This document shows positions 9,276 through 56,371 of a stretch of 64,000 nt of DNA, piece by piece; the stretch's first letter is position 1; each line of letters begins with the position of its first letter. The notes beneath the pieces were generated by a model, which saw only the letters and a program-made list of their open reading frames with translations, did not search any database and was not told the DNA's origin. Position numbers and translations under genes: made by a program. The stretch is taken from the NCBI RefSeq assembly GCF_964340395.1, contig NC_135565.1, positions 11,847,742-11,911,741 of the forward strand, given 5' to 3'. This stretch comes from Glandiceps talaboti (taxonomy: Eukaryota > Hemichordata > Enteropneusta > Spengelidae).

Positions 9276-9516
9276 AGACTGTCGACAGTCGCTCGCGCCT
9301 TTTTTTCCCTACGTTTTATCTAAACTTAAGTCGTCGCCGCGCTCCGATCCGGCGCAACACTACTATAATCGTATACTGATATCGAGGGCCGAAGGCCCGA
9401 GAGATCGAAGGCGCCCTCGATATCAGTATGCGATTATAGTGGTATTGCGCCGGATCGGAGCGCCGCAACGACTTAAGTTTAGATAAAACGTAGGCGCAAG
9501 CGACTGTCGACAGTCT
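9276..9516. mobile_element. GC-rich, almost fully palindromic foldback element
   Basis: The ends AGACTGTCGACAGTCGC and GCGACTGTCGACAGTCT, and nearly all of the interior, pair with one another (GATCCGGCGCAA with TTGCGCCGGATC; GATATCGAGGGC with GCCCTCGATATC). The element is far more GC-rich than its surroundings, which suggests recent insertion. Confidence 0.75.
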
Positions 9517-18612: not shown

Positions 18613-18639
18613 TCGATTGAATGATCAGTTTTTGTGGTG

Positions 18640-18935
18640 CGATATAACTTATTTTGTGTGTTATATTGATCAATTCACTCATTGAGTTTTAAAACTATTT
18701 CTTTTTCTTTCCCTGGTTACTTTGCTCTCAGCTGTATCTCAGACCACTAAAAGTCTGAGGCTGTATGTAATTCTCTTTTCTTTATTGACTAAATAAAGAC
18801 GCCTTGTCCATTCTTCTCCTCTTATCTAAATTAAAACACTCCTAATCTTATAATTGGCGAGAGATCAGTTACTGTGAAAATTTGCTTTGTGTCTAATCTT
18901 CTGCATCTGGGAGATTATCACACTGGACAGTCGAT
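18640..18935 (+). repeat. Dispersed repeat family G, copy 1
   Basis: Shares TCAGACCACTAAAAGTCTGA, AAATAAAGACGCCTTGTC and ATAATTGGCGAGAGATCAGT with copies at 41.04, 52.07 (reverse) and 57.12 kb. The last two are the paired arms of the second large inverted duplication. Confidence 0.65.
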
Positions 18936-19124
18936 CATGCATAAACTACAAATGTAGTAAGGAAGAGAATTACATAGAGTGCACATATGGTAATCTTGTC
19001 TATTGTTCAAACATTGAAAATTTAAATGGCAAATCTTTCACAAACAACAGATATGGCCAGTTCCTTATTGGCTACTGATAAAGTTAATCTGTCCATCACT
19101 GGTTAGGACTATACTATGGTACAA

Positions 19125-21140: not shown

Positions 21141-21569
21141 TCAATATCTGTATTTTGTTGAGTAGTCTTTTGGTGAGACTACCAGACCTCGTCCTTTCCT
21201 TGCACCTCTGTATACAGTCTCTATAATATCGACCATTTCCTGCTTGTCCTCCAGTGCCCAGTTTATTTTGTTGTTGTTTCCGGTTCCCAAATCAATCATG
21301 ATATGTTTGTTCCTGAAGAAAAACATCGAAGTACAAGGATCGTACAATTCATACATTTTGTTGAAGTCGGGCACCTCTGAAATGTCTACCAGATACATCA
21401 CAGCAAAGTTTTTCACTTTATCGGCGATCGAGTACAGGACCTCATCCATTTTCATGCAGGTAGGATCCCAATCATGGCCAAATCGTATGACAACCACCCT
21501 GTCCTCCTCTGATAATATGGCTTGGTCCACTTGCCAACCATTGTGGAGATGTGATAACATGTAAGACAT
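21141..21569 (-). CDS. TXNL4A: Thioredoxin-like U5 snRNP 15-kDa protein Dim1 (TXNL4A)
   Basis: A 142-residue protein of exactly the family length, differing from the human protein at only about six positions by recollection. Dim1 is a thioredoxin-fold core component of the U5 and U4/U6.U5 tri-snRNP, needed for pre-mRNA splicing and acting in the nucleus. Diagnostic segments: MSYMLSHLHNGWQVDQ at the start, RFGHDWDPTCMKMDEVLYSI, DLGTGNNNKINWALEDK, and VSPKDYSTKYRY at the end. The WDPTC motif replaces the redox CxxC of true thioredoxins, as is normal for Dim1. All coding sequence is in one exon. A strong acceptor (pyrimidine-rich tract then ACAG) lies four bases upstream of a Kozak CACCATG, so a 5' UTR intron is likely. 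The gene is oriented away from NDUFA9. Confidence 0.97.
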   Translation of the reverse strand: MSYMLSHLHNGWQVDQAILSEEDRVVVIRFGHDWDPTCMKMDEVLYSIADKVKNFAVMYLVDISEVPDFNKMYELYDPCTSMFFFRNKHIMIDLGTGNNNKINWALEDKQEMVDIIETVYRGARKGRGLVVSPKDYSTKYRY

Positions 21570-21573
21570 GGTG

Positions 21574-21600
21574 CTGTCATAAAAGACAATAAGACAATAC
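21574..21600 (-). promoter_or_regulatory. Probable 3' splice site just upstream of the TXNL4A start codon
   Basis: On the gene strand a T-rich tract ends in ATGACAG, followed directly by CACCATG. This fits a 5' UTR intron whose acceptor sits four bases before the initiator, so the transcription start lies further towards NDUFA9. The upstream exon was not identified. Confidence 0.55.
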
Positions 21601-23942
21601 AAGAATGAATGTTCATGAACTCTGGGATGACAAATAATTTCTTGAAAAAGAATCCCAAATTTCTAAACAGCATTGGCAGGGGTGTACTGCAATTCAATTT
21701 TTTTTTTCAATTCTTCTGAGACACATGACAAATAACTTATAATCAATAATCTTAAATTTTTAGATTATTGTTCACCCCTGACGATGCTGACAAGATGTTG
21801 ATAAAAATTTTGGATTCACTTACGAGAAATGATAATATACCTATACTAAACATAAGAGTGGGTTACATGTTTTAATTACCAGTTATTTCATCCAACAATG
21901 GGGATATATAATTATGAATATTGTATAAAATCAGTTTTCAATGACTTTATCAGAGTACATTGTACTTCATCACAGTGTTTGGAGCATAGTTTTGTTTTCT
22001 GTAATTTTTAGTTTGAAAAAAAACATGGGATCAAATTTGTGAAACTTTCTCCATGGGAGGAAAACTAGCAGAGCCGAGGAGACAAGGTCATTGTAAACCC
22101 TGCTAGGATGTAGCTCTGGAAATGTGTGCTCTGATAACTCCAACATATCTCTGTTACTCAGCGATGGATCTGTTACGCCACAATTAATCCTCCCTGTCAA
22201 AAACCCTACAATAAACATATTAAAAAATGACACAGATCCATGTCAAAGTCCTTGATAAATATTGAAATGTATTTTAAATCACTAAATTTAACATACATCT
22301 TTGCCATAGCATCATGTCTAGCATAATGTTCACTCGAGCTGCAAAGCAAACTATAATCTGACTACATGTAACTCAATACTAAAACATCATCCATTTTACA
22401 TGTACATGTATGACTCACAGGAATGTTACATGTAGACAAGAAATGACTGAATAGACAAGATGTAGGTTAAAGGTAGAACTGGCCATTCATGTGGTTGTCT
22501 CACCTGTGTATTTGAAATCACTAAATTTTGCTATTTTTGCCCAACACACAAAAGTGAAATTCAAACAATCAAAATATCAGTTGGATAGCAGAATATTAGT
22601 AGTGATAGTCGTTCAAGTGTACAGATAGGCTGTATACATTACATATGTATTCTTGACAATGTACATGTATTCAGTCTATTTCTAGACTTGAACTACTATG
22701 GCTACTACATGTACATGTATATTCCGCTATCCTAACTCAGATTTTTGATTGTTTGAATTTTGCTCTTGTGTGTTGGGCAAAAATAGCAAAAAATCAAAAT
22801 GTTAGCTACTTAAGATAGTGGAATATTTCAGCGATAGTCGTTCAAGTCTACAGATAGGCATTAATGGGTGGTTATTTTACCGAACATCTGTACACAGGAA
22901 ACTAGAGTTGTAAGAAATTATGTGTAGTCTCAGGATTTTTTTTATAGGGAACCATAGCGGACCAATGCAGAAGTGTCGAAGTTATCAGAGCACACTTCTC
23001 TAAAGCTAGGTCGAGAAGAGGAATACAGTACAGCAATTATTAACAACAACAACAACAACAACAACAATGGTTGAATGAAAGTGGCATATTTTGAGTATGA
23101 CCAACTGTCGAATGTGATATGAAATCAGGTTTAACTTTAAGCTGTGGCAAGCTAACCCTGCATTCCTACATGTATTTTGTATTACTAACCTACCTCTACC
23201 TTCCCTCTCCATTTGAACATGCAGCCGGATCGAGAATAGACTTAGCCTGGCAAACAGTACTAATTTTAATACAAATTGGTTATGTGCAATTGTACCATAA
23301 ATTATTTGTATATCGGTGTGTGATTGTACAAGTATGTACAATCAGTTCACTCTCAGACACTACACTATTCGTCAATGCATGCATGGAACTTGGAAGAATT
23401 TGTGAGATATCCTCCCAAAGTCTAGTAATGGTAATGCATTGGTCTATCATTATTTGTACACACGGTCCACTGTTCTTGATTCTTGTCGAATGACGCGACT
23501 TTTAAAGCCCGTCTAGTTCACACCATCGTCGTATATTCGACCTACCTTGAACTTTGTCAACTCCAAAGACCATAAGATAAACGAAGTGATACTACATATA
23601 TCGTTTTCCTTACTCTCAAAGACAAACAAATATCGTTCTGACACTGCAGTCGTTTCCTGAACGTGTGGGTTTGTAACTCCCTAGTCGGAGATTTTTGTTG
23701 GTCAAGTGCGCCCTCTGTGCCACCCAAGCTACCGAAGTACAATTTTCAATTTTGTATGAAACAAGAAAGTGCTTCGAAACTGTACATTTTGAGTGTCTAT
23801 ATTATTGTTTATATCAATTTATTACAGAATAAAATGACAGCGTTCTCTTTTTGACGCACATTGGCTACTGACTCAATGTTTTAAATCACATAAGATAGGG
23901 AGTTCTTATAATGCGCAGAAGATCTGTACGCAGGTGTCCATT
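21601..23942. other. Region between the divergent TXNL4A and NDUFA9 genes
   Basis: Should contain the TXNL4A 5' exon(s) and both promoters. Visible features are the inverted repeat at 22.5-22.8 kb and a short (AAC)n at 23040-23067. Confidence 0.5.
22525..22791. repeat. Inverted repeat with about 80-bp arms
   Basis: TTTTGCTATTTTTGCCCAAC and its complement GTTGGGCAAAAATAGCAAAA end the unit; the arms continue through CAAACAATCAAAA. A direct repeat of GATAGTCGTTCAAGT follows at about 22835-22850. Confidence 0.65.
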
Positions 23943-26900: not shown

Positions 26901-29900
26901 AGTTTAAGGGGGCAAGATTGATATTTCAGTGCAGGATACGAAACTAAATTCTTTTAGTTTAGGGTTTGGGGGTTTGAATCATGATTTTAGTTCTCACTTG
27001 ATAACAAGTGTTTTAATTTTAATGGAATCTGTTTTGCACCCCAAAAAACAAATATTTCCAACAAATTTTGAGAAATGGAAGTATTTTCCCTATGATAAAT
27101 ACATGGCACTAATATACATGTAAGGATGAGCATGTCATATTTGCAGTGCTACATACCCCATACTAAATTGATCTGAAATTGTTCTACAAATGCCGACATC
27201 AGACCGTGGACAAACGGAACATGTTACAAAAGGGAAAAGTAAACAAATGAATTGGATTAATAACACTTGGCTCAGCATGTTGGAACAGCAGAGACTTGTA
27301 TTACACGCCATGGTATGATAAGAAAAGTATTATGGCCTCTTTATGTGTACATGAAATGCCAGGGGAACTGGAACTTTGTTTGTGAATTTGAACTATTATT
27401 TAAAATGGCCATAAAACTGTTCTTATCAAATGATGGAATGTAATACAAGTCTCTGCTGTTCCAACATGCTGTGCCAAGTGTTATTAATCCAATTCAGTTG
27501 TTTACTTTCCCTGTTTGTAACAGGTTCTGTTTGTCCACGGTCTGATGACTGAAGTTGTATCTCTTCATTGTTCTATCTCTGTTTTTACAGGAATTTTCAC
27601 TTCAACGATACCAATATAGAGGTTGCTGGAAGGATTGCGCGCATTGCAAGAGAACTGAAGATACCCAGACTTATTCACATGTCAGCACTTGGAGCAGATA
27701 TGAATTCTAGATCTAAATTCCTAAGAACAAAGGTAAGGTGAACATGGACAATTGCAGTAGCAGTTACTTTTGGCCCATCAGAATATCTTGTAGTGTATAG
27801 CAGTGCGCCCTCAAATAAGAGTCAACATTTGTTGTGAATCAAAGTGATAAAGAAGTAGCCTGTTTACTGTGCTGTCATGCATGATACATCGTTAGCCCTT
27901 GAAATTGCAGAAACTGATAATAACGAATTGAAAATTCTCACCCAATGCAATGGGCAATGACAGTGTGCAGTCCCTTCAATGAGAACCAGTCAGACTATCA
28001 TTATTCAAATGAATTATTATGTAAATGTAGGCAATGCATGAAGTGGACATGTGATGCTTTACATGTTATTTACATATGAATATATAAATTTAACCATAAG
28101 GATGTTTTACTACGATTATTTGGGGTGTGGCTACCTGAATTGTTTGAAAATCTTGTCCGCATAAGTGGAGTATGTGAGGGCAAGGAGGTACAGCCAGCTA
28201 ATGTTGTATCACGACCGTGCAGTAAACAGGTTACCCTGATTGTTGTGCAATGGGGGGATTACAACAGTGCATGTAGGCCTGTACAATTACATTTGCCAAA
28301 ACTCAAGTAGCGATTATTACTCAAATATTATTCCTTAATATTTGACTTCTTTCAACCAAGGAAAATACGAGTGACCTAAGGAGCCTTATACTACTGTGAG
28401 TTGCTAGACAAGTACTTACAAACCCTTAGGTTATGTGCATTTTATGGCAGACTGAAGAAAAATATTTTGGAAAATAATGTAAATATACTTCCTCTGGCAG
28501 GATTTGTGAAAAATCAGAAAAAAACAATGGCACTTTGATTCATTTTTGAAACACCACAGAACCAATGACGCAGACATGGGATGTTGTGACGTGGAACAAC
28601 CAGTGTATATAATCCATGTTTTCTGTTCTGGGTTAATAACTTAGACTTGTGCATGGTATGATGTATAATGCTTTGTGTTTCTGCAGGCTGCTGGAGAAGA
28701 TGTAGTTAAGAAAGAATTTCCTGGAGTAACTATTCTAAGACCAGCACAGATTTATGGAAGAGAAGACAGATACTTTAACCATTATGCTAGTAAGTACTAT
28801 GACAGAAGCCCACGACACATGAGTGCAAGTGTAGCATACTTGGGGTATTTGCATGAGTGCTTGCTGTGTTTTCTGCACCCATACTTTCACTCACTATACT
28901 AATAAAAGTACAGCAGAAATACTGCAAGCACAAGTGTAAATACTCTTGACTACCCACACTGGAACTCACGTGGCATAGGGTTCTGTTATTATTACATATG
29001 TTTATCCGAAAAAACAAATTTCCGTAAAATGACTCGGCAATCAGGTGCTTTTGTGCATAACAAACTATAATCGTGTCGTCGTTTGCACATCATTTGCATG
29101 CAGGTATGCAGTAATGTTTTCAGTATTGCACTGCAGTGCAAATACCACTGGTATGTGCTCACACAGGAACAAGTAATCTCTGGTATATATGTAATAATAC
29201 ATGTTTTATGATTATGTCAGCAACAACAAATATTGCAATTTATGTCTTGCCCAAGGCCTTGCACTCTTCACCAAAAGTGATGCCCAAGCCAGAAATGAAT
29301 TCACTATCAAATTTTGATAAAGATGGATAGCTTTTAGTGCTAGTGAATTTACCCTTGTTCAGGTAGAACACGGAATCTTTCACAAAGGCTTAGTACACAT
29401 GTTACCCCATTCTCATAAAAGGACAGGTACTAGTAGTATTTTAACAGGGAAAGCACAGATATTACAAGAGGGCTAAGTACTTCTGTTGCCTAGTTTGGGG
29501 TGAATACAGATATTTCAATTGGCCTAATTACTGCAATTACTATACCTTGTATAGAGAGAAGCAGAAATTAAAAATCTTTTCAGAACCCATGTTCCTTAGT
29601 AGAAGGAGAATTCAGTAGTCACATAAAGATTTTATGCACCAGTTACATTCTTTCGGTAGAACTTGCTCAAACATTTTCAGCGTGCTCAGAACCCATATTA
29701 CTTTATGGAGGGCAAATAGATGAAAAGTCACCTGAAGACTCTGTAGTCTGTTTTCCTGTTGTTACCTTCTTTGAGTAAAGCTCAGAAATGTTCAGGGTGC
29801 TCAGAACGCTTTGTGCATAGAGTAAACTGGCATTGCGAGATTACTAAGTGCCCTGTTAGTGTTACCATTTATAGGAAGAACATGGTGTATCTGAGAGTTA

Positions 29901-32830
29901 CGAACCCATATATCTTCAATTGTTCTGAGAGAATATTTGATTTACCCACATCAAAATTTTTAAAAATTGTATACTTTCTTTAATTCTACAGATCATCGTT
30001 TCTTTGGTGGTGTACCACTTTTCTTCAGCGACAGAAAAGCCCTCAAACAACCAGTTTATGTAAGTGAACTAATATTTAGATCCAGCTCTACAGTCTTTTT
30101 GGTATTGTAGTATTGTATATGATTCTGACAATTAGGACCATATCTTGGAAAATTTCCTCAAGCTCAGAAATGTTGTTACATCTGCTAGAGCTTAGAGTTT
30201 TCTATCAGATCAGTTTTTTTCTCATAATTCCTAATTCCTTTTATTGTACTTAGGTAACTGATATTGCACAAGCTGTCATGAATGTCATCAAAGACAGAGA
30301 GACCATTGGTAAAACCTATGAACTAGCAGGGTAAGTTGATGTTATGTAAATGTATATAGTAAAACCAATGAAGTATAAATGTAGCAGGGTAAGTTGATAT
30401 GTACATGTATAGTAAAGCCTATGAACTAGCAGGGTAAGTTGATATGTAAATGTATAGTAAAGCCTATAAAAAAAGTATGAACTAGCAGGGTAAGTTGATA
30501 TGTACATGTATAGTACAACTTATGAATTAGCAGGGTAAGTTGATATGTACATGTATAGTAAAGCCTATGAACTAGCAGGGTAAGTTGATGTTGTGTACAT
30601 ATGTAGTAAAACTTATGAACTAGGGGGTAAGTTGATGTTGTGTACATATGTAGTAAAACTTATGAACTAGGGGGTAAGTTGATGTTATATACGTGTATAG
30701 TACAACTTACAAATTAGCAGGTGAAGTGGATATGTACATGTATCACTGCGACTTGTGTAATCTGAGCAGTGGTCTAAATACCTTTATAAACTGCAATCAA
30801 GCTCACATTATTAGACAAATCAAAGAATTACATCTTATTGTTACAAACATTCGAAATAAAGAAGACACAAGGCAAATTAGCACCACAGTGACCCAGAATC
30901 GTAACTTAGCTGATCATCCATGCCTTCTAAGTCAATTTAATCAAAGGGGCACAAGCTTAGTTGATACATTTTGGGTATAGTATTCTACTTACTAAAGCAT
31001 ACGTACATATCACTTGCAATTGACTGAACTCAAACTAAATATTAAAATATTACGTAAACAATCAGATGGTGTAAATTTTTGATACATATTTTAAAATGTA
31101 GAGGAATCCATACAAGGCAATCAACCACTCTAATAAAATTTGTAAGCAATTGATATGCCACAGAAGACATGCATCAACATTAATTTTATACTATGATAGT
31201 GTAGTCGAGGTTTATGTAAGTATTTCATTTATAAACTCAGCTTGTGCCACCTTTAACCGATGCTGGATAGCAATCCATTGTGTGTATACACCAAATTTTG
31301 GTACTCATCTATTTCTCACTGTGTACTGACTCACAAGAAAATTTTGTTGTTGTTTTTTTTCACATGACAAAAAATGTCTTCAACAGTGGGCACATTGCCA
31401 TTCACAACTTAAAGTCTGATGTATTTTATAAACATGTTTTTTAAACATTATTTTAAGCCATTATGTTATCCAGTGTGTTGATTTGTACTTTTTGGTTTAT
31501 TGTTTTATCTCTGTTATACTGTATGTGCGGCGATTTTGAATTTTAAAAATAGACAAGACACTCCAGAAAAATAAATCAACTTTCAACTTTTTAATAGACT
31601 TACACTAACTTTTAATTGTAGAATGCATAGAAATGTTTCAATCTCTTTCATTTCAGACCACATCGTTACCAACTGGAAGACTTGGTCCATTATATCTACA
31701 GAGTGACAAGTCGTTCATATATTTGTTATCCTGTACCAAGACCTTTACTTCACGCAATTGCTAGGATATTTGAGATATCGTATTTCAACCCATGGATGTC
31801 TAGAGATAAGTTAGAAAGGGTAAGAAGTAATTACTCTATTTGTAAAGTTTTAAATCCCCTCCAGGGTTTGCTTTTCTGCTGGATACGAAAGATTTGACAT
31901 TGACCTTCATCTCCAAGGTCAAATGATAAATTGTTCAACACATTTGGAAGTCTCATCCAAAGCGACACTATTCAAATGTGTACACCCACATTGTTAGAGG
32001 TATGTTACTTTTCAATCAGATGTTTGATCGTAACCTTCATTTTCAAGGTCAAACTTAAATTTGCAGAATAATTTTGCCATACAACAAATTAGTTTGGGGC
32101 TATATCACTTTTATAAAGGTTTGTGTTATTTCTATTCGAAAATCACGTAAAATGTTGGGGACAGACAGGGTTAGCTCGGGTGAGTTTTGTTGTAGTTTGT
32201 ACAGGTTGAAAGGTAAAGTTCAATCAGACATATTTCTGCCTTTAGTACACTTGTAATGATTACTGTTATCAACATATATTGCTTTGGGTATTTAAAATTG
32301 CACCTCGTTAACATTCAATTTTGAAATTGTAAAGAATCCCCACTACACTGGACATGTATTCAGCCATTTTGGAAATGTTCTGCATGGGTTTATCCGAAAA
32401 CTTCTGTTGGTGACATCTAAGTTACCACAAAGTCTTTGTTTTGATAAATGCAACGAGTGTCACAGGTGAAAATTGTGTCTGTTTTGATTTAGTTGTAGAA
32501 ATATGTGGGGGTCTTAAGAAAGTTGAGAGTGAAAATACTTTGTTTAATTCCAGATCACTCCCTGCCATGTAGTGTATGCACTAAGATGAGAGTACATGTA
32601 TTGTGGTCAGCTAGCAGTTGATTTGCAAAAAGTACTAATTTTGTATGATTTCTCCTCCTTTATAGTATCATACAACAGAGAAGGTTGCACCTGGTATGCC
32701 AGGCTTAGAAGACTTAGGTATCAAGCCAGTCAGTGTAGAGGAAGCGGCAATCCATGGGCTGAGACGACATCGTGCTGATAGATACTTTGAAGACTCCGTG
32801 GAACAAGCTGAACCTGCAAAACATGTTTAA
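23947..32830 (+). CDS. NDUFA9: NDUFA9, complex I 39-kDa accessory subunit, ten-exon gene (coding span)
   Basis: Coding parts join 23947-23986, 24751-24951, 25591-25688, 26790-26881, 27591-27732, 28687-28789, 29992-30059, 30254-30330, 31657-31819 and 32666-32830. The phases fit throughout and give 1149 nt, 382 residues (human about 377). The product is a short-chain-dehydrogenase-like, NADPH-binding subunit of mitochondrial NADH:ubiquinone oxidoreductase, in the matrix at the peripheral arm. Seen: an N-terminus rich in Ala, Arg and Lys and nearly lacking acidic residues, suited to a mitochondrial presequence; the family start [20 protein letters not shown] with the Rossmann glycines [51 protein letters not shown]; and a terminal LPG-type segment ([11 protein letters not shown]). 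All junctions are GT-AG. Introns 4, 5 and 8 carry MITE-like repeats and intron 8 starts with a splice-donor minisatellite. Confidence 0.96.
24751..24951 (+). CDS. NDUFA9: NDUFA9 exon 2
   Basis: The acceptor CATCTATTAG was chosen because it restores phase 1 from exon 1; a TTTCAG at 24677-24682 gives the wrong phase. Encodes the rest of the presequence and the Rossmann segment with [14 protein letters not shown]. Donor G|GTGAGA. Confidence 0.88.
25591..25688 (+). CDS. NDUFA9: NDUFA9 exon 3
   Basis: Acceptor CCCTTCTTAG, donor CTT|GTAAGT. Encodes [13 protein letters not shown] and [10 protein letters not shown], matching the family's VIVPYRCD and MGDLGQ segments. Confidence 0.94.
26790..26881 (+). 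CDS. NDUFA9: NDUFA9 exon 4
   Basis: Acceptor ATTCCATAG, donor AG|GTAAGA, ending in phase 2. Encodes the segment with [15 protein letters not shown], homologous to SNVVINLIGRDWET. Confidence 0.94.
27197..27547. mobile_element. MITE family D with about 105-bp inverted repeats (NDUFA9 intron 4)
   Basis: CATCAGACCGTGGACAAAC at the left is mirrored by GTTTGTCCACGGTCTGATG at the right, and the arms stay complementary through CAGCATGTTGGAACAGCAGA and its reverse. It lies 43 bases upstream of exon 5, so it sits next to the acceptor region. Confidence 0.75.
27591..27732 (+). CDS. NDUFA9: NDUFA9 exon 5
   Basis: Acceptor GTTTTTACAG, donor AAG|GTAAGG. Encodes [19 protein letters not shown] and the segment [10 protein letters not shown], matching the FIHVSHLNA region of vertebrate NDUFA9. 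Confidence 0.94.
28361..28602 (+). repeat. Dispersed hairpin repeat family C, copy 2 (NDUFA9 intron 5)
   Basis: GAAAATACGAGTGACCTAAG at the start, CAGAACCAATGACGCAGACA and GAACAACCAG at the end. Inserted in NDUFA9 intron 5, just upstream of exon 6. Confidence 0.65.
28687..28789 (+). CDS. NDUFA9: NDUFA9 exon 6
   Basis: Acceptor TTTCTGCAG, donor A|GTAAGT, phase 1. Encodes [19 protein letters not shown] followed by [10 protein letters not shown], a hallmark of the family. Confidence 0.95.
29992..30059 (+). CDS. NDUFA9: NDUFA9 exon 7
   Basis: Acceptor AATTCTACAG, donor TAT|GTAAGT. Encodes [20 protein letters not shown], matching the PLGSLGWKTVKQPVYV segment. Confidence 0.94.
30254..30330 (+). 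CDS. NDUFA9: NDUFA9 exon 8
   Basis: Acceptor TGTACTTAG, donor GG|GTAAGT, phase 2. Encodes [20 protein letters not shown] and TYELAG. Its last 22 or so bases and its donor are repeated about eight more times in tandem downstream. Confidence 0.93.
30309..30745 (+). repeat. Minisatellite of the exon 8/intron 8 boundary of NDUFA9
   Basis: About nine units of 45-56 bases. Each carries a version of CCTATGAACTAGCAGG followed by GTAAGTTGAT and a tail like ATGTACATGTATA. Unit 1 is the real exon 8 end and donor; the other copies lie in intron 8. Most copies keep AGG|GTAAGT intact, so the array holds several potential 5' splice sites. Units drift (GGGGGTAAG in two, GTGAAG in the last). Confidence 0.9.
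30948..31255. mobile_element. MITE family E, copy 1 (NDUFA9 intron 8)
   Basis: The ends GGGCACAAGCTTAGTTGAT and TAAACTCAGCTTGTGCCACC are inverted repeats about 310 bases apart, with internal TTGACTGAACTCAAAC shared with the 59.5 kb copy. Confidence 0.7.
31657..31819 (+). CDS. NDUFA9: NDUFA9 exon 9
   Basis: Acceptor TCATTTCAG, donor AGG|GTAAGA. Encodes [17 protein letters not shown] and [19 protein letters not shown], homologous to RVFEISPFEPWITRDKVER. Confidence 0.95.
32666..32830 (+). CDS. NDUFA9: NDUFA9 exon 10 (terminal coding exon)
   Basis: Acceptor TCCTTTATAG. Encodes [19 protein letters not shown] through AEPAKHV and TAA. An AATAAA lies 113 bases after the stop. This exon and its surroundings (about 32257-32975) are exactly what is missing from the inverted copy at 37 kb. 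Confidence 0.95.
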   Translation, partial: YHTTEKVAPGMPGLEDLGIKPVSVEEAAIHGLRRHRADRYFEDSVEQAEPAKHV

Positions 32831-32948: not shown

Positions 32949-33915
32949 TTTGATCTCACGGCTACACAGTATTGTATATACCACAAATAGGTTTTGACAG
33001 TGTTTAATGTGATATGGATGTGATACATTCTACATCACAGAGCTCGATATATACTTAGATTCTATTGTTATTTGCAGTCAGCTGCATGCAAAGTACATAC
33101 AACACCACCAGAACAAAACAATATCAAGTTGGAATAAAAAGTAGTTCAGTGAACATCAACATTTTCAATGATAAATTTGATGTCAAATACTCCTATACTT
33201 TCTCACATCCCCCAACATGTTGGTTCTTCTATGTTAATGAAACTGTACAGATAAACTAAAAAAAAATTGCAAATGTTGCTTCGGAACATATAAAGGACAT
33301 GTATGGAAATACACATATATGTGAACACTTTCTTTCAGCAGTACCTGTTTGGCAGGGGTCGTGGTTTTTCTTCAAATAGCGCCCTCATGCAGGGGTTGTT
33401 ATATTTTTGGTGTCAATTCTCTTGATTGCCTGCTTGCAATTCACAACAATGTCATGTTCACTAGATGTGGATGTAGATTGCTGGAGATTTGATGACGATT
33501 GTAGGGATTTTGATGATAATAAATGTTTTAAATACATTGCACATTGTTTTATTTAAAGTGGGGATAACTAGAACAGGGGGGGTGGCAACAGGAGCAGTTT
33601 GTTACACTACCTGTATCAACAACTTTCTGTTGGTGTAATCCGATATACTTTATATCAGTAAAGACCCAATATTATTTATCAGTATGATTATTGCATGTTA
33701 TTTGTACACCTACTATATACACTTCAGTCCATGTAAAGTAGATCTTTCTATGAAAAACAGTATAACCCCTCCCACCCCCAAGAATGAACAAAAACACACA
33801 CAATCCTACTCATAAATTTCACAAATTTGAATTTTAACATTTTTCAGCATCTGGTACGTTATATTGTACATTTAATCCTCTCTCGGGTAGGGTGTGGGGG
33901 TATTTGTACACAAGT

Positions 33916-35839
33916 CATATCACACCATTTGAATTGAATGCCACATGGCAGTGACGAACAAGCTGATTGGGCAATTATGCGTCCCGGTCTGGATTTTGCC
34001 AAAATATGTACATTTAGTGTAAACTTGATTAACGTCTCAACTTATCTGTTTGTCTGTTTGTCTGTCCATCTATCTGACTGTCTCTCGTCCATCCGTTTGT
34101 GTATGAATATGACACGAACTGATTAGGCTCTCCTAAACTCTGTAATGCACATCATTGAATAATTTGCCTAAATAATTATGTGGGTAATCAAGTAACATCT
34201 TAAGGCAAGCTTTATATTCCATAAAAAGTTGTATAAACGTAAATTGGTGATCATAAAAAAGACGTATTTCGTAAATTTTGCAGATATAGATTTATATATA
34301 TTATATGTCGACATTCGAGTATTATGTTACGTGGAGACAATACTGCTGGCTGATACATAACACCTATCGATATTAGCAACAGGTCTTTCATAGTATCTAT
34401 CAGTTCCACAACTGCTTTGTTTGTGAGGCTATAGCTGTTTGATTTGTTGTCGTTGATTTCACACAGTGAGTAAATCGTGATGAGTTCCATTTACAGGTCG
34501 ACGTAGCGCGAATTCTATGATAACACCAAAAGCTAATATTCAAAAAGACATTTTCATCAGATTAACGCCATATGGAAACCCTACACCCTGACAGCTACGT
34601 ATACTTCAAGGATTACTATATGGAAACCCCTCTGACAAATACCTTATAGAGTACCATATGGAACCCCTCCCCTCTGAGGACTGCCTAAAAGACTACCGTG
34701 TGGAAATCTTCCACTCTGACAACTACTCAAAGAAAACCATATGGAACCCCTCCCTCCTGACAGTTCCCTCAAAGACTACCGCGTGGAAATCGTTCACTCT
34801 GACAACTAACTCAACGACTATCATATGACTACCCCCCCCCCAGCAACTACCTCAAAAAGTACCACATGGAGACCCTACACCCTGACAACTGCCTCAAGGA
34901 CTTCCCTACGAAACCCCTCTGACAACTACCTCAGAGTACCATATGGAACCCCTCCCCTCCTCTCTGACAACTTACTCAAAGACTACCATATGGAACCCCT
35001 CCCCTCTGACAACTACCTCAAGGACTACCATATGGAAACCCCCTCTGACAACTAGCTCAAAGACTGCCATATGGAACCCCTCCCCTCTGACAACTGCCTC
35101 AAGGACTACCATATGGAACCCCTCTGACAACTACCTCAAAGAGTACCAAATGGAAAACCCTCCCCTCTGACAACTACCTCAAATACAACCATGTGGAAAT
35201 CCCCCTCTCTGACGACTACCTCAAATACTACCATATGGAAACTCTCCCCTCGAGCGACTGCCTTGAAGACGACATGTGGAAATCCTCCTCTCTGACGACT
35301 ACCTCAAATACTACCGTATGGAAACTCTCCCCTCGAGCGACTGCCTTAAAGACGACATATGGAAATCCTCCACTCGGATAATTACCTTCAAGACTACCGT
35401 ATGGAAACCCCCTCTGACAAGTGCCTTAAAGAGTACCATATTTACCCCCCCCCCCCTGACAACTACCTCAAGGACTACGTATGGAAATCCTCCACTCTGA
35501 CCATTATCTCAAAGACTGCCATGTTAACATTAAAATTGACTCATGAGGCTATCAAATCTTCAGGTCATCATATACGTAGTAAGAGGATAAAATGCATACG
35601 AGACTATGTATGTTGTATAACTGCAACATAGACTTTAATTATCAAAGCTCTGAGTTCGGCTTCACGGCCTCACTCCAAAGCCAGAGCCAGGAGACGCAGA
35701 TGCTGACAGCTCCGCGGTCAAAATCCAAGTCATGGGACTGCAACGCTATTGTTGTTACAATAATTAAATCGCAATAAGTCACGCATATGAGATGAGCTTT
35801 TAAGATAACAATAGGTTATGCATGGTTATGAGCGTCGTG
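33916..35839 (+). repeat. Duplicon copy A (1.9 kb) with internal tandem repeat
   Basis: Collinear with 54669-56325: same start (CATATCAC then CATTTGAATTGAATGCC), (TCTG)-rich patch, GTATTTCGTAAATTTTGCAG, the tandem array, and the end TTATGCATGGTTATGAGCG. It lies in the spacer between the arms of inverted duplication 1. Confidence 0.85.
34560..35520 (+). repeat. Degenerate tandem repeat of about 42-47 bp in duplicon A
   Basis: Around 20 units like CTCTGACAACTACCTCAAAG followed by ACTACCATATGGAAACCCC. The peptide DNYLKDYHMETP appears in all three forward frames because units vary in length, so the open frames are a by-product of the repeat and not a gene. Confidence 0.85.
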
Positions 35840-36100
35840 ATGAAATGAAAATCTTTTTCTTTTTTTGTACTTTGTTGATACGTGTTTCTGTTTGCCGTGA
35901 AAGCATGCATGGGAAGATCTGTCAAACAGACCAGCTTCAACTTCCGGGTCAAATTGTCACTTTCTGCCAAAAATTCTGGAATGGACCGTTACACAAACAT
36001 TGCGAGTTTTTTGAGTTTTTTTACTAAGGTCATTTAAAGCACATAAGAATTCATCATTTTGTGAAATTTGAGATGTCAGTTTAGGTTTACGTTTTTACAG

Positions 36101-36885: not shown

Positions 36886-36970
36886 GTTTGTTGTTTGTTT
36901 GTTTGTTTGTTTGTTTGTTTGTTTGTTGTTGTTGTTTTGTTTTTTTTGTGTTTTTTTTTTTGGGGGGGGG
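36886..36970 (+). repeat. (GTTT)n with T and G runs
   Basis: GTTT units, then T-rich and G10 tracts, at the inner border of the right arm of inverted duplication 1. Confidence 0.9.
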
Positions 36971-37988
36971 TTGGCGGTTATACTGTTTTTCATGAAAAAG
37001 ACTTACTTTGCATATACTGAAGTGTATATAGTAGTTGTATACATGACATGGAATAATCATACTGAAAAAGAATATTGGGTCTTCACTGGAATAAAGTATA
37101 TCAGATTAAATCAAAAGAAAGTTATTATATATGTATGTAACAAACTGCTCCTGCTGCCCACGTCCCCCTCTGTTCTTGTTCTCGTTAGTCCCACTTTAAA
37201 TAAAACAATATACAATGTATTTAAAACATTTATTATCTTCAAAATCCCTACAAATGTCACCAAATCTCCAGCAATCTACATCCACATCTAGTGAACATGA
37301 CATTGTTGTATGCAAGCAGGCAATCAAGAGAATTGACACCAAAAATATAACACCCCTGCGTGAGGGCGCTATTTGAAGAAAAGACAGGACCCTGCAAGCA
37401 GGTGCTGTAAATTGTTGAAAAAGTGTCCATGTTCTTCCATACATGTACTTTATATGTTCTGGAGCGGCATTTGCAATGTTTTAGTTCATCTGTAAAGTTT
37501 CAAGGACATAGAAGGACCAACATGTGTGTGTGTGGGGGGGGGGGGGTGAGATAATATAGGAGTGTTTGACATCAAATCACATCACATTCATCATTGAAAA
37601 TGTTGATATTCACTGAACTATTTTTTATTCCATATTGTAGTTTGGCTTTGTGTTGGTAGTGTTGTATGTACTTTGCATGCAGCTGACTGCAAATAACAAT
37701 ATAATCTAAGTATATATCGAACTCTGTAATGTACAATGTGTCACATCCACATCATATTAACACTGTCTAAAACCTAGTTGTGGTAAATACAAGTGTACTA
37801 AAGGTAGAAATGTGTCTGATTGGACTTTACCTTTCAACCTGTACAAACTACAACAAAACTCCCCCGAGCTAACCCTGTCTGTCCCAACATTGGACACGAT
37901 TTCCGAATACTAGTTATAACACAAACCTTTATAAAAATATATATATAACCCCCTCCACAACTAGTTTGTTGTATGGCAAAATTATTCA
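36960..37988 (-). repeat. Large inverted duplication 1, right arm
   Basis: Reverse copy of the NDUFA9 3' region without its last exon. The deletion junction reads CACTTGTATTTACC on the left-arm strand, with TTGTA present at both left-arm breakpoints. Divergence is roughly 5-10 percent by eye. Confidence 0.85.
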
Positions 37989-38413: not shown

Positions 38414-38813
38414 CAATGCTTTCGGTATTTCAATCAGAAAGTTTTGGTCATTTCATATCGGCATTGCACCTTGCCGTTTAACACTATGATTACGAATAAT
38501 TAAATGGGATTTAACATATGGAATATCTCACACGATTCGGTAGATATTTGTCTCATACGAGCCCAAGGCCAGTGTGAATTGTTGTATAGCGTCACAGCAT
38601 CCTTCAGAAAAAGTATTTGGCAAATTCATTGTTCAGAGCACTATTAGGAGCAGTGATACATAGGGCGATTTCAACGACAAACCATAATATTTCTCTGAAA
38701 GGTCCATCGGTTGGTCCGCATATGTAACCAATCGCACTTCGTAATCTAACCTATGGTGGCGTATGATGTTACCGTCTCGATCAGTCACAATGATGATCTT
38801 GAGAAAGTACGAA

Positions 38814-40105
38814 CTTAGACTCTATCTTTTCTAGACTCTTTCAATTGTCGATCGATACTCACACCGTCCCTCACTACTGGAAGAAAAGTTGTATCATCCC
38901 TATCCCGAAAATTCCAAGGCCAACAAAGAACAATGACTTCAGGCCAGTAGCACTGACTTCCATACCCATGAAATGCCTTGAACGGATTCTGCTGAAATAT
39001 CTTGTTTCTCGGACATCGTTATACCAGGATCCACTGCAGTTTGCATATCGCCAACACAGGAGTACAGAGGATGCAGTTCTGTCCATTCTACATACAATAA
39101 CCCAGCATCTGGATGCTAGTAATACTTCGGTTCGGGTACTATTCGTGGACTTTTCGAGTGCGTTCAACACCATCTCCCCCAACTTGCTAATCAGGAAGTT
39201 GAGGAATATGGCTGTAAACCAACAATTAATCCGGTGGGTGGCAGACTTTCTGACCAGGCGTATGCAGTTTGTTAAAGTGAACTCAACAAGCTCGGGTAGC
39301 CGAATGACGAACACTGGCTCACCACAAGGCTCCGTTATTTCTCCATCCCTATTTACCATATTTACATCCGATTGCAATCCAATAAATACAAACAGCAACG
39401 ACAAGCTCTATAAATTTGCCGATGACAAAGCCCTGGTAGGACTTATTACAGCGAATCGAGACACAACTTATAGAGAAGAAGTGGATAGACTAGTGACCTG
39501 GTGTGACAATAATAACTTGATCCTAAATGTGAATAAAACAAAGGAAATGATTATAGATTTTCGGAGGAATACTTCAGAACCCACAATGCTTGAGATCAAG
39601 GGGGGGGAACGTAGGAAGGGTTAATAGCTACAGATATCTTGGTATGTCTTTATCGAACACTCTTACCTGGGGTGAACATGCATGTGCACTAACCCGTAAA
39701 TGCCAACAAAGAATGTATTTTCTACGCAAATTGCGTAGGTTTGGTGTATCTAGCAAAATTCTGCATATGTTCTATAAATCTACCATTGAGTCGATCATAG
39801 GATATTGTATTTCTTGCTGGGGTGGTAGTATCACTATGTCTAGTTTAAATCAAATAGATCGAGTTATTAATCAAGCAAGGAAAATTGTAGGAGTACCTGT
39901 GCCCAGTGTGAGTGAACTATTTGCTAAATCTAGTGAAAACAAAGCCGCACTCATCCTGGCTGATAAAACTCATCCACTGAACTGTAATTTCATTAAGACA
40001 AGGTCCGGCAGCAGATACCGCTCAATTCGATGTCGCACCGATAGATTCGGCAATACATTTGTGCCTTCCGCTATCAGGATGCTTAACCAAGCATGTACAA
40101 GATAA
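38814..40105 (+). pseudogene. Broken LINE reverse transcriptase (C-terminal half of ORF2)
   Basis: The first frame (to 39624) has RT motifs FRPVALTS, FVDFSSAFNTI, GSPQGSVISPSLF and the catalytic-box variant YKFADDKALV. At a run of eight G (about 39601-39608) the frame shifts by one base, and the second frame (to 40105) continues with SYRYLGMSLSNTLTW, FYKSTIESIIGYC and a typical C-terminus. The upstream part of ORF2, including the endonuclease, is absent. Non-functional as it stands. Confidence 0.85.
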
Positions 40106-45164: not shown

Positions 45165-47747
45165 CTGTGGAGAAAGAAAATCAGATTATAAGCACACGAT
45201 CTACTCGTTTAATGTACGCACAGTTACAATTGTTTGTCTCACTGGCATATTCATATCCGGAAAAGTGCTATTCATGGGAACTAAAGAAGGTTGCTATGAT
45301 TTTCTACAAAAACAATGTATAATTGAAAGTATCACCAACATTTACGTACACAATTATTGTTTTACCATTTTTAACCGACCAAAAGAGCCATTTGTTTTGT
45401 AGGATTTTACATTAAAAAAAAAAACAAATAAAAATCGCCGCCCGAAGGACAACAAAGCATTGTTTCTGGCCAGGACATTTTCATGGTAAACCGTTCAGGC
45501 CAAAAGTATTATTCTTATTTTGGCAAAAGTATTTTTTTTTTTTTTTTGAGCTACAAGTGTTTGGAAATTTTTCGAAAATGATTAATACCGGATCGTGGTC
45601 CGTAAAAACAATTGTATTTCTTCGGACCACTCGATTTCTATAGCAGGGGTGTGGAGTAACTATAATGACTGATTTCCGGTAGGTGTAACACGCGTACGTT
45701 GTCGCTGTACATGTACATGTACTTGGCACCTGCATAAGCGAGTCAAATGTCCATGCAAGTGCAACGGACAGCGACCAACGTGTATTAGGCCTCCGAAGTC
45801 AGTCAGGAAGTCATTTGAGTTACTCCACACCCTGCTATGGAGATTGAGTGGTCCTTGGAAACACAATTTTTTTTACGGACCATGATTCGAAAATAATATT
45901 TCCAAAAACCTAAAAGAATTCTGGTTTGACGAAAACTAAATCAACATGATGCCTGTAAAACACCATAATCTCAATTTGTTTGACATGGAATAAAAGTATG
46001 GATTCCATTGACAAATTACACATAAGTAGTTAAAATTAGTTTGTTTTAACTCCGAAAAATACTGCTAAAATAAGAATAATACTTTTGGTCCGAACGGCTT
46101 GCCACATTTTGCCTAAAATGGTGTGGGTTTGTTCCCCTGCCAAAAATTGCCCTGCAGGAAATTATGTTTTATCCACATTTGTAGCAAGAATAATGTACTT
46201 TTAAAGAAGAGATACAAAAGACATAAAATTTAGAACAGAGATTATTATTTAGAAACCATATTTGAATATTACATTGTTTGAACGTGAAATGTTGAAGTAT
46301 GGCCCTGTGAATTCCAGCGTTCTCTATATAATTTTGACTATGGTACAGAACATGCTAATAACTAAATTTAAGCAACAATCTGTGAAAATAATTAGAGTCT
46401 TGGTCTTGTTCAGACTTATTTTGTTTAATTATATTTATAGACATAGTAGTTCTTGTGAGATGTGGAACAAGTAACGTTTTTGCTATAAAATATCAATGGA
46501 AGGAAATTTGAAAATTGTTTTCTGATTATTTATTTTAAAAAGTGACTACAGTTGAGGTAAAGGCATGAAGGTATACACGGAAATAGAAGTAAATTGTTAC
46601 CATTTTAGCTTTTTGCATGCAAACATAATGGCTTTAGACTGCGGTCTCTCTCTTTTGTATTTATTTGGGCCTTAAGTTTCATAGATACGAATGTAAAAGT
46701 GAGTTCCATTGCTAATACTCAGTCAAAAATTAAAGCAAAACAAAAACCACAAATGATTTAAGTGATTTTACGTTAACTTACGAAATCAAAGAAACCATAA
46801 CAAATGTTGTGCTTTAAAGTGGAAATATGGAGAAGGATTGGGTTTTTATTTTAGATTTTTAACCTGTGTAAAATAATATTATCCTGACTTCCTTCTTGAA
46901 AAAGCAATGTGAAACAAGATATGCCAAATCCCTGTTTGTAACTGAATGTAAAAAAATGCAAACATTTATTTAATAAGTGTGTAAAATGTTTATTATTGTA
47001 CGTACAATAACAAACGTTTTACATATCCTTTAGCTCTGCAATGTATCCAGTTACAAACTAGGGCTTGGTATATTTTGTTTAACATTGGAATTTCAAGGAG
47101 GAAATCATGATAAAATTGTTTTATAGATTGAAAGTGGACAATAAATACCCAATCCTCGATATCCATATGGCCATTTCAAGGTAATTTTTATACGCTGCAA
47201 CACTGCCAAATCGTTAAGAACTTTCGTGGCATAGCATTTCTTTAAATTTAAAAAGAGAAATATAAGTGATGTGTTCTTTAACGCTGGGTATGGTAAAGAA
47301 GTAAAATTTCGATTAGTTACTAAACCCACCTCCATCTTCAATAGGCGTGACACACAAATTATAGATGTACACGTCATGCCAGTCAGCTGGACAGCTTTGC
47401 TTCATTAATACACTGCCTTCCATTGTATGTACACATACATCATGGAATTCATCTTCGTCCCTTTGACCAACCTGAGAAGGGGAAGGGGCAACTCCGCATA
47501 CATCCATGTAGTCAAAACAGCAGTCATCAAGCTGTAAACACAGCGAATCGCAGTGGCAGCTAAATTTATCTTCACCCTGGAATACAGTCCCGTTACACAT
47601 TGGCTGGCCAGATGCCGTGATACACGAGTCTATTCGACGATGTGTTGCCTCATCAATACAAATACCAAGTGCATTTGTTTCATTGTGAAAAGCAACAGCA
47701 GCAGCCGATATTAAATACATGACGGCGATTACAGTGAAACACAACAT
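43417..47747 (-). CDS. Somatomedin-B-domain seven-transmembrane receptor (class B/methuselah-like), two coding exons
   Basis: Joining 47330-47747 and 43417-45164 (minus strand) gives 721 residues in frame (phase 1: G plus AA makes Glu). Seen: a signal peptide (MLCFTVIAVMYLISAAAVAF), then a somatomedin-B-like knot ending CHCDSLCLQLDDCC and DYMDVC, a Cys-rich ectodomain with FRNIFCTVCNG and a second CATCNG, many NxS/T sites before the membrane, and a 7TM region from about residue 456 to 710. The 7TM part is secretin/methuselah-like (NICWIRNRD, IGLSWFFALAES, FNSLQGAFIF). No GPS autoproteolysis motif is visible before TM1, so it is not a typical cleaved adhesion GPCR. The tail is very short. The ligand is unknown. 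The ATG at 47747 follows an in-exon 5' UTR and an acceptor at about 47777, implying a further upstream exon. Confidence 0.85.
45469..46113. mobile_element. Foldback element of about 0.65 kb in the SMB/7TM receptor intron
   Basis: AAAAGTATTATTCTTATTTT at the left and AAAATAAGAATAATACTTTT at the right are complementary. Further in, CTATAGCAGGGGTGTGGAGT pairs with ACTCCACACCCTGCTATGG and GGTCCG with CGGACC. No coding content. Confidence 0.75.
46815..47178. mobile_element. MITE family F, fully palindromic (in SMB/7TM receptor intron)
   Basis: AAAGTGGAAATATGG with GGATTGGGTTTTTATT at the left pairs with AATAAATACCCAATCC and CCATATGGCCATTTC at the right; the interior pairs too (GTTTGTAACTG with CAGTTACAAAC). 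A related element ends at 4073. Confidence 0.7.
47330..47747 (-). CDS. SMB/7TM receptor exon with signal peptide and somatomedin-B domain
   Basis: The start ATG context is CCAAACATG. Upstream, CCTATTTACAG is an acceptor, so a non-coding exon precedes it. It ends with donor GGAG|GTGGGT in phase 1, after CVTPIEDG. Eight cysteines in an SMB-like pattern lie within about 55 residues of the signal peptide. Confidence 0.85.
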
Positions 47748-51537: not shown

Positions 51538-53296
51538 GTAAACACTTATTTTGTGCAATGGAAAACCCCACAGGACTTGCGATGACACTACATGTGACAG
51601 GTTATCGAAATTCACGATCTTCTTATGTTAATCAACACATCTTTCATATACATGTGCTTACTTCACAATAAACTCTCATTATGCTCCATCTGCACTACTG
51701 TATAATTAGATATGTCTTTTGAAGTGAAGTGGGGAACTGAAATGATGTGGGTGTTGAAGCAAAAACACACCATTAGTCACATTGTTTCGTCATTGTGTCC
51801 TTTTTGTAATGAAAATGCGACTGGGCACAAAGAAATTTATATGCAGCCTTCTTCAATTGCCTCGAACATAACGTGATTACGGTTACGCATAAACAAATGG
51901 GTCTCTTTATTTACAGTTTTAATCTGTCGCAAATTTGGCACTGACCATGATCAGCAGCGTTGACAAGACATGTCATTTGTGAACTCTACTTTATAATGGA
52001 CCATATTCTTAAATGGCAGCTGAGATCTCGCACAATGCCGATCATCGTTACTAGCTTATGCATGATCGACTGTTTGTCCAGTGTGATAATCTCCCAGAAG
52101 ATTAGACATAAAGCAAATTTTCGCAGTAACTGATTTCTCGCCAATTATAAGATTAGGGGTGTTTTAATTTAGATAAGAGGAGAGAATTGACAAGGCGTCT
52201 TTATTTAGTCTAAAGAAAAGAGAGAATTACATACAGCCTCAGACTTTTAGTGGTCTGATCAATATCACACACAAAATAAGTTATATTGCAGTCGTTATTT
52301 CTCTGATACCTGTAAACTAGCCAACGGATCGTTTCTCATATGCCCCTATAGTCTCTAAGGGGGGTTTCCAATATACCCCAAAAGTTTCTGAAGGGCATTT
52401 CTCAGATGGTATAATCACGTCAGACAGATTTTCAACCGATTCTAGTGTGCAAATTGAAACGAAAAAGGTAAAAAGCTTTGGGGAATTGAAAGGTTTGAGT
52501 CTGGCATATATTAAAATAGGTTATGAAGCACAGAGGAAGTTGAATATTACACAAAACACTTGAAATCCTTTGGTTCTTCAAGAAATCAACACTTTATTGT
52601 TGACCGATTCTTAGCGTGTAAGTTGTTTCCGTAGACTTGTTAATATTGTTTGCCTCAATATCAAACAAAACGTTTCAAAACATGTAAATTGAGAGAAGAA
52701 AGTTGAAAGTAGTAGAAATATTGAAATCCACCGGTTCTATCTTTAAGGGTATTAAAAACCAGAATTTAAATCCCTGATTCTTACATTAGTGATATCTTAT
52801 GATTGGATATGAAGGGCTTAAAATAATAGAATCATTCGTTTGTTCAGGAATAACTTTTTTGTACTAATTCTTTCAGGCAACTGTTTTTCACACCAACAAT
52901 TTAATCCTAATCTCAACCAGGCATTGAAACGATTCCTTGTAGTGAAGGGTAGTTTAATCATATCTTATCTCCTCATATTCATTCCAGATTTTTATGAAAG
53001 GGGAACGTCACTCCAGGAACGGAAGGCATTTTCATGAACGATGGGTTCTGGAGCATCATGTCATGGTTTTACATCACGCACATCACACGTGGTTTCAGGG
53101 AAATACCTTGAAGTTAACGTTGTCCACCATTGGGGGGGGGGGGGGGGCTTTGCTGATTACCTTGTCATAATTTTGTAATTATGAACGGTGGTTGTGTGCA
53201 GACATGACGTTGTTTATACATTACGTCAAACACCTAGTTAGAGAAGTGAAGATGATGTTTTAATGTAATGGGTGGCAAGGCAATAGGAACACTAAT
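51538..53296 (+). repeat. Large inverted duplication 2, left arm
   Basis: Reverse-complementary to 56372-57972, for example GGAAAACCCCACAGGACTTG, GGTATTAAAAACCAGAATTT and AATAGGAACACTAAT. It holds an extra 260-base block (about 52884-53145, ending in a G run) not present in the right arm. Confidence 0.85.
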
Positions 53297-53710: not shown

Positions 53711-54809
53711 TCATCCCCAGTATAAAGCCTTCCTTACAAAAGGTAAAATTGGGATACCCTTGCTCTTATATCACCGAACGTTCGGAGATTGAAAACAGAA
53801 CCTTTGCGTCATGTTGTCATAAATAAGACCGTTTCCCCATAGATCATAATACATGTACTGCTATACCCACAATGACCAATCAGAAGCCTGAATTTCTACA
53901 AGTTTGTCGGAATACACTTTTTCATCCACTTCTCCTCAACCATACAAATCTAATAGTTTGCATTTAACAAACTTTTGCAACATTTTCAGTAAACAGCACG
54001 TTTATTCCCGCCCAAACATTAAAGATACACCAAAGCAAAGACGTAAAAAGGAAATCAAATGTTCTTGTTTTTGTAACGTCATTCGAAGGAGACACAGCAC
54101 CATGCCTATATCATTAGCACTACTGAGTCATATCATTTCATTTGTGCTAAAAAGTGCTCACCATGGGAGAGGGACACCCATACATACCCTCCCATCTAGC
54201 GATCATGGTGATGCTGTTTCTCTCGCAAATCGAGATTGGATGGAAAGCCCTGTTGGACAAGTATTCCCAAGTATATGTTACAACCCAATGTGAGATCTCT
54301 CCCTGCAAAGCATCTATTTGTAAAGAAATGTGTTCTTCTGTATGGCCTGTTTACGGTACTTACGGTATATTCCATTCAACTTCTCATATGTTCGAATTCG
54401 TAACTTGTAACTAGAATTGGAAAAAGTTGATATTACGCATCGTCGCAAACCACGGCCTCCTTTACGGCACCGTCGAAACTTGCCTTAAGAACAAGCTCGT
54501 TAAATAACAGCTCTGGTTTGCGAGAATGATATTACGGTTCAACATCTCAACGCATTATTGCCCAGTCAACATGGTCGTCATCATGGGGAATTTAAATGAA
54601 GTGACATGCAGATGAACACATGGACACACATTAGCGAATAGAATAGAGCCCTGTCCTTGTGTTATCTGCATATCACTCCATTTGAATTGAATGCCCCATG
54701 TTGGTGACGAACAAGCAGATTGGGCAATATACGTTGCGGTCTGGATTTTGCCAAAATATGGAGCGCCCTCATTTATTGTAAACTTTATTAACCTCTGAAC
54801 TTATCCTTC

Positions 54810-54817
54810 TGTTTGTT

Positions 54818-54890
<73 letters not shown>

Positions 54891-54893
54891 GAC
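54810..54893 (+). repeat. (TCTG)n microsatellite in duplicon B
   Basis: The equivalent place in duplicon A has only a few diverged units, so this tract expanded after duplication or shrank in copy A. Confidence 0.9.
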
Positions 54894-55329
54894 TGTTTTG
54901 TAATGCATATCATCGAATCATTTGCCTAAATAATTATGTGGGTAATCAAGTAACATCTTAAGGCAAGCTTTATATTCCATTAAAAGTTGTATAAACGTTA
55001 ATTAGTGATCATAAAAAAGACGTATTTCGTAAATGTTGCAGATATAGATTTATATATTATATGTCGACATTCGAGTATTATGTTAAAGTGGAGACAATAC
55101 TGCTGGCTGATACATAACACCTATCGATATTAGGTCTACTTAAATCAACAGGTCTTTCATAGTATCTATCTCTTCCACAACTGCTTTGTTTGTGAGGCTA
55201 TAGCTGTTTGATTTGTTGTCGTTGATTTCACACAGTGAGTCAATCATGAAGAGTTCCATTTACAAATCGACGAAGCGCGAATTCTATGATAACACCAAAA
55301 GTTAATATTCGAAAAAGACATTTTCAGCA

Positions 55330-56020: not shown

Positions 56021-56371
56021 ATTGACTCTTGAGACTATCAAATCTTCAGGTCATCATATACGTAACAAAAGGATACACTGCATACGAGACTATGTTTGTT
56101 GTATAACTGCAACATAGACTTTAATTATCAAAGCTCTGAGCTCGGCTGCACAGCCTCACTCCATAGCCAGAGTCAGGAGACGCAGATGCTGTCAACTCCG
56201 CGGTCAAAATCCAAGTCATGGAACTGCAACACTATGGTCGTTACAATAATTAAATCACAATAACTCACGCATATGAGATGAGCTTTTAGGATAACAATAA
56301 GTTATGCATGGTTATGAGCGCCGTGGAAATGAAATAAAGGACACGGAATTTGACATCTCCAGGCATACAAC

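Follow-up and report, generated by a model that had tools for sequence, protein, structure and literature searches.

Tandem duplication of an exon-intron junction at a splice donor of NDUFA9

The DNA analysed here is a stretch of 64,000 nucleotides of contig NC_135565.1 (the window), and its subject is a minisatellite-like array at 30309-30744 that spans the junction between a coding exon of NDUFA9, a complex I subunit, and the intron that follows. When joined, eight exon pieces of this gene encode 284 amino acids and match 32 distinct solved NDUFA9 chains at E values up to 0.001. The best match is to 7zdh_d (E = 5.1e-90), in two stretches (chain residues 19-78 and 102-339); the best-matching chains are presumably mammalian. 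The homology bears out the gene name given, from the sequence alone, in an earlier note on this DNA. A candidate further piece (VVINLMG...) lies near 26838. Counting it as the third, the exon at the array is the seventh of nine coding pieces placed, and 'exon 8' was the label of the earlier note. Judged from its genes and introns the window is probably animal DNA, and a search of viral and prokaryote contigs with the exon starting at 31657 returned no relative, which is what one would expect if the gene is an animal one. The parts of the gene around the array are as follows.

30060..30253, plus strand: upstream intron, 194 nt, placed from the sequence; below 250 nt, and so in the short class of PMC9225289.
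30254..30330, plus strand: NDUFA9 coding exon, 77 nt, 26 residues, ending in phase 2; placed by alignment to solved chains and by translation across the first donor (donor 1).
30331..31656, plus strand: host intron of the array, 1326 nt, with its acceptor AG at 31655-31656; placed by translation.
31657..31822, plus strand: next NDUFA9 exon, its 3' limit approximate; placed by homology and translation.
32690-32827: last NDUFA9 exon piece; from the placement of the exon pieces.

Other repeated sequences also lie in and beside the gene. A palindrome is found between two NDUFA9 exon pieces (27185-27559), and the last exon piece is contained in the 716 bases that separate 32066-32255 from 32972-33798, two segments matched in inverted orientation, at 82-86%, by a nearly continuous stretch at 36947-37987.

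Run on the window, Tandem Repeats Finder (TRF) returned overlapping tandem rows across 30309-30743 with periods of 45, 47 and 101 bp (scores 355, 312 and 368), besides weaker rows, and a second repeat search likewise recovered the array at the NDUFA9 junction. We aligned the array by hand in nine rows which, when joined, are an exact string match to positions 30309-30744 of the window. Each of the nine units, of 45-56 bp, contains the tail of the NDUFA9 exon and the start of the intron, with 21 to 33 exon-derived and 23 to 28 intron-derived bases. All rows below come from this alignment; unit 1 rests on translation as well.

30309..30358, plus strand: unit 1, the authentic junction, 22 exon and 28 intron bases; exon tail GTAAAACCTATGAACTAGCAGG and donor GTAAGT at 30331.
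30359..30411, plus strand: unit 2, donor intact at 30389; exon-like part 8 nt longer.
30412..30456, plus strand: unit 3, donor intact at 30434; nearest to unit 1, with one difference over 45 aligned bases.
30457..30512, plus strand: unit 4, donor intact at 30490; exon-like part 11 nt longer.
30513..30557, plus strand: unit 5, donor intact at 30535.
30558..30605, plus strand: unit 6, donor intact at 30580.
30606..30652, plus strand: unit 7, donor intact at 30627, with TAGGGG for TAGCAGG.
30653..30699, plus strand: unit 8, donor intact at 30674, with TAGGGG for TAGCAGG.
30700..30744, plus strand: unit 9, with the degraded donor GTGAAG at 30721.

The amplification of the exon end and its donor into about nine units, as described in the earlier note, is therefore confirmed by TRF, by the repeat search and by the string-matched alignment. 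The 12-mer GGGTAAGTTGAT occurs exactly eight times in the window, always within the array and in eight of the nine units. With up to one mismatch it has 9 matches in the window, where 0.39 are expected and none of 100 shuffles reaches 9; the ninth, with a single mismatch, lies outside the array, at 50017. That most units keep an intact consensus donor, another statement of the earlier note, is correct for GTAAGT (8 of 9 units) and too generous for the full string, CTAGCAGG directly followed by GTAAGT, which is found in four of nine. AGCAGGGTAAGT is present in six of the nine units, CAGGGT in all of units 1-6, and in units 7 and 8 GTAAGT directly follows TAGGGG. Donors 1 and 2 are 58 nt apart. 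Units 1-8 show no difference between positions -2 and +10 and, therefore, over that stretch their donors do not differ in pairing with U1.

Joining donor 1 to the acceptor AG that ends at 31656 keeps the reading frame (...TYELAG/PHRYQL..., where the slash marks the junction), and the best solved NDUFA9 chains align through this point without gap or insertion. This makes donor 1 the productive one, and the conserved protein is obtained from it only. The earlier note had one unit functional, and by frame and homology that unit is unit 1. The outcome of splicing at any of the other donors is set by three bases.

30332..30334, plus strand: TAA within donor 1, an in-frame stop when a later donor is used; from translation.

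The exon closes on two bases of an unfinished codon, GG (phase 2), and if donor 1 is retained its GTAA turns them into GGG TAA, so that translation stops directly after ...YELAG. The same happens with each of the eight later donor positions, the seven intact and the degraded one: the stop always occupies codon 27 when the exon is read through, and the new junction lies 54 to 386 nt further downstream. The idea, put forward in the earlier note, that splicing at a later donor would lengthen the protein by repeat-encoded residues could draw on the intact donors and on the spacing of donors 4, 5 and 6 and of the degraded ninth, whose distances from donor 1 are multiples of 3. However, GGG TAA is retained in 8 of 8 later-donor products and the protein is shortened, so that translation refutes the idea for this allele and leaves it with next to no probability. 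Targets of nonsense-mediated decay usually obey a 50-55 nt rule. On that rule, and with further coding exons downstream, later-donor mRNAs should be targets of this decay.

Since the eight intact donors cannot be told apart by strength over -2 to +10, we turned to their position relative to the two introns, which can decide among them, by analogy with published competition data. Among human donors of near-equal strength that compete for the same exon, the upstream one is preferred if long introns flank the exon on both sides, a preference that is stronger when a short upstream intron is combined with a long downstream one (143 near-equal-strength events; PMC9225289). When minigenes carried two identical donors (CAG/guaagu) separated by 52 nt, only the upstream one was used (PMC9225289). 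These minigenes put the same question as the array, the choice among equal donors in one exon context. Carried over from human cells, the published results predict that the upstream donor is chosen here. The exon would be recognised with a short intron of 194 nt upstream and a long one of 1326 nt downstream, so that sites are paired across the exon and the donor nearest the upstream acceptor is taken. The extra donors would be tolerated because the splicing machinery pairs sites in this manner, and any transcript that escaped to a later donor would meet the immediate stop and be destroyed by nonsense-mediated decay.

Several published observations weigh against this prediction. When no filter for strength is applied, most human events prefer the downstream donor in all four intron classes, and an older rule of intron proximity, by which the donor nearest the next acceptor wins, predicts the use of later donors (PMC9225289). 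The minigenes are built constructs in transfected cells, with two donors and introns of 365 nt on both sides, whereas the NDUFA9 array is natural and has eight donors between introns of 194 and 1326 nt. The upstream intron is also close to the border between modes of recognition, given as 200-250 nt (PMC9225289). Finally, at the variable number tandem repeat (VNTR) of human ABCA7, described below, there is some use of the second donor, though little (2 +/- 1% as quoted; PMC5954066).

Donor 1 does not stand out in predicted RNA structure: by the probability of being unpaired from -3 to +6 it ranks 6th, 5th and 5th among eight donors when folded with windows of three sizes. No structured-RNA match was obtained with Rfam at the gathering score between 30000 and 31800. 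We also considered whether hairpins mask the decoy donors through pairing of AACTTA with TAAGTT. Units 5, 7 and 8 do fold locally in this way, but the candidate was rejected on the same ranks of donor 1.

The units could alternatively behave as cassette exons, or the array could be an intron or exon at an early stage of birth through tandem duplication of AG/GT. Both depend on the AG dinucleotides of the array, which we compared with true acceptors using the pyrimidine fraction over 17 nt, a crude measure of acceptor quality. The best of the 36 array AGs reaches 0.47, against 0.65-0.82 at five acceptors of NDUFA9, among them 0.82 at the AG ending at 31656; AGs elsewhere in the host intron reach up to 0.65-0.71. 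By this measure no array AG has a pyrimidine tract, and therefore the copies are not ready-made exons and we reject cassette exons, with the caution that so crude a measure calls for. Introns have been documented to arise when genomic AGGT segments are duplicated in tandem (PMC3443670), mirages (see below) have been proposed as a route of this kind in amphioxus globins (PMC3087553), and CAGGGT is kept in six units here. In intron gain a duplicated AG serves as the new acceptor, whereas no AG of the array, at 0.47 or less, resembles one, and the array sits within a host intron that is already in place. We therefore regard such a birth as highly improbable. The likeness to the intron gain described in PMC3443670 lies in the copies bearing AG and GT; the difference is that in NDUFA9 no new intron is seen and the copies stay inside the existing one.

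A further explanation is that the extra donors are kept as a valve, such that some transcripts take a later donor, run into the stop and decay, and the output of NDUFA9 is lowered in a controllable manner. Eight of nine donors are intact and identical over 12 nt, and the stop falls at one shared place for every later donor, as a valve would require. Nevertheless, the stop comes with the donor sequence as such (GG/GTAA in phase 2), no selection being required to explain it, and donor 1 is not distinguished by predicted structure. In ABCA7, moreover, use of the second donor is independent of VNTR size (PMC5954066). We looked for selection on the extra donors with a permutation test that takes columns as independent, excludes gapped columns and ignores the relatedness of the units. 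Among units 1-8 the invariant run of 12 columns, with 12 of 44 ungapped columns variable, is not unusual (P = 0.14), and when unit 9, whose donor is broken, is included the longest invariant run is 4 columns (P = 0.99). Selective maintenance of the extra donors was rejected on these values, and we consider a valve quite unlikely.

A role for the array that would not involve later donors is as a reservoir of spare junctions, in which deletions by unequal exchange repair the junction while array length drifts; the extra U1 sites could also hold U1 at the start of the intron and affect the rate of splicing. Fusion of the exon to unit 3, 5 or 6 (3 of the 8 extra units) would restore an in-frame exon end together with an intact donor, at the cost of one altered residue, and fusion to units 2, 4, 7, 8 or 9 breaks the frame, if the break is at the start of the unit. 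Such a capacity follows from the sequence; selection for it finds no support, and on the whole we think this role unlikely.

Regarding origin, the array would have begun when the exon-intron junction of NDUFA9 was duplicated in tandem, giving birth to the minisatellite, and would have been enlarged by slippage or unequal exchange. The units differ from each other at 1 to 13 of 44-52 aligned bases and carry indels of their own. Unit 9 is the most diverged, with 6-13 differences from the others; it is usual for the last unit to be the most diverged at the edges of an array. The closeness of units 1 and 3, the lengthened units 2 and 4 and the TRF period of 101 bp would fit growth in steps, one or two units being duplicated at a time. 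One part of what the earlier note attributed to slippage can thus be retained, since slippage or unequal exchange is probably the natural origin of the array, and the other, that a donor is buffered by it, cannot: were donor 1 mutated, splicing from donor 2 would again end in the stop, except where the mutation had destroyed the TAA. Mis-assembly is a general hazard of tandem repeats, and the copy number in the window may be inexact; one or two units could have been inflated in this way. Yet the differences and indels among the units are unlike the simple re-use of one sequence, and an assembly artefact seems to us very unlikely.

The location of the array was also compared with chance. With intervals picked by hand from the TRF rows, the other 15 of the 16 arrays with periods of at least 16 bp cover 3.8% of the window, and if they are placed freely, 8 to 16 splice sites are hit 0.31 to 0.61 times. 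A single overlap with a junction in one window is therefore not remarkable in itself. The statement of the earlier note that minisatellites normally avoid splice junctions leaves out of account the arrays described in amphioxus (PMC3087553, PMC3902484) and in human ABCA7 (PMC5954066).

The closest relatives are the 'mirages', minisatellite-like duplications of intron-exon boundaries named in amphioxus Adh3 and then found in two globin genes, BflGb6 and BflGb9, the latter with the donor-side exon boundary duplicated (PMC3087553). Troponin C has been named as another amphioxus case, and imperfect repeats of a similar sort occur in PGBD5 (PMC3902484). In mirages the repeats contain exon and intron sequence of one junction, and splice signals are present in many, not all, of the units (PMC3087553); the NDUFA9 array, with 22 exon and 28 intron bases in its authentic unit, nine units and GTAAGT in eight of them, has the same organisation in a different gene. 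The similarity extends to the edges of the cluster: unit 9 is diverged, and in a globin mirage, too, homogenisation did not reach the units at the edge (PMC3087553). According to the published accounts (PMC3087553, PMC3902484) mirages leave regular splicing undisturbed, as suggested by Adh3 data and by reverse transcription PCR (PMC3087553).

The VNTR in intron 18 of human ABCA7 starts with the exon 18 donor. When one unit is retained, the frame is shifted and a premature stop arises in an mRNA described as decay-prone; array length is correlated with skipping of exon 19 and lower expression (PMC5954066). Both arrays are thus tandem repeats at an authentic donor GT in which retention leads to a premature stop. 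They differ in that the ABCA7 units are of 25 bp, lie in a C-rich stretch, begin at GT and are described without exon sequence (PMC5954066), the first being wholly intronic, whereas the NDUFA9 units are of 45-56 bp and the array begins 22 nt inside the exon.

An array that spans an exon-intron boundary is therefore an already-known kind of feature, newly seen in NDUFA9; no earlier report of it at this junction turned up in the literature searched, which comprised open-licence papers and was searched only in part for NDUFA9 by name. Taking the evidence together, we think it probable that the array is a minisatellite of the mirage type derived from duplication of the NDUFA9 junction, that the extra donors are intronic passengers, and that donor 1 alone makes NDUFA9 mRNA. 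The locus is a naturally occurring example of a single exon context with eight equal donors, in which use of a wrong donor would be read out by an immediate stop. If alleles of different array length exist, donor choice could be measured against donor number in the living animal. The GC content of the window is 36.5%, compared with about 41% in amphioxus; if the host is not an amphioxus, minisatellites that contain exon sequence and span a boundary would not be peculiar to lancelets.

Elsewhere in the window, two minisatellites of 41-42 bp with the common consensus CCTCAAAGACTACCATATGGAAACCC... are found at 34602-35522 and 55371-56013. Both sit in a longer repeated block (33916-35850 and 54669-56334, 78-84% identical), which may be a mobile element that carries an array inside it. 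A long inverted repeat (51540-52887 and 56513-57969, 93-97% identical) surrounds about 3.6 kb including the second 42 bp array, and parts of its arms match 18638-18948 at 89-90%; it may stem from an inverted duplication of recent date, or may be an element whose ends are long and inverted. The palindrome within NDUFA9 is one of five of about 240-375 bp that are 70-81% self-complementary, the others being at 9276-9516, 22526-22791, 45569-45908 and 46814-47179, and these may resemble miniature inverted-repeat transposable elements. Finally, open frames at 38803-40105 read like what we take to be a reverse transcriptase of the non-LTR (long terminal repeat) type, and a long uninterrupted frame on the minus strand, at 21141-21662, possibly an intronless copy, reads like the spliceosomal thioredoxin-fold protein TXNL4A/DIM1, both as judged from their translations.

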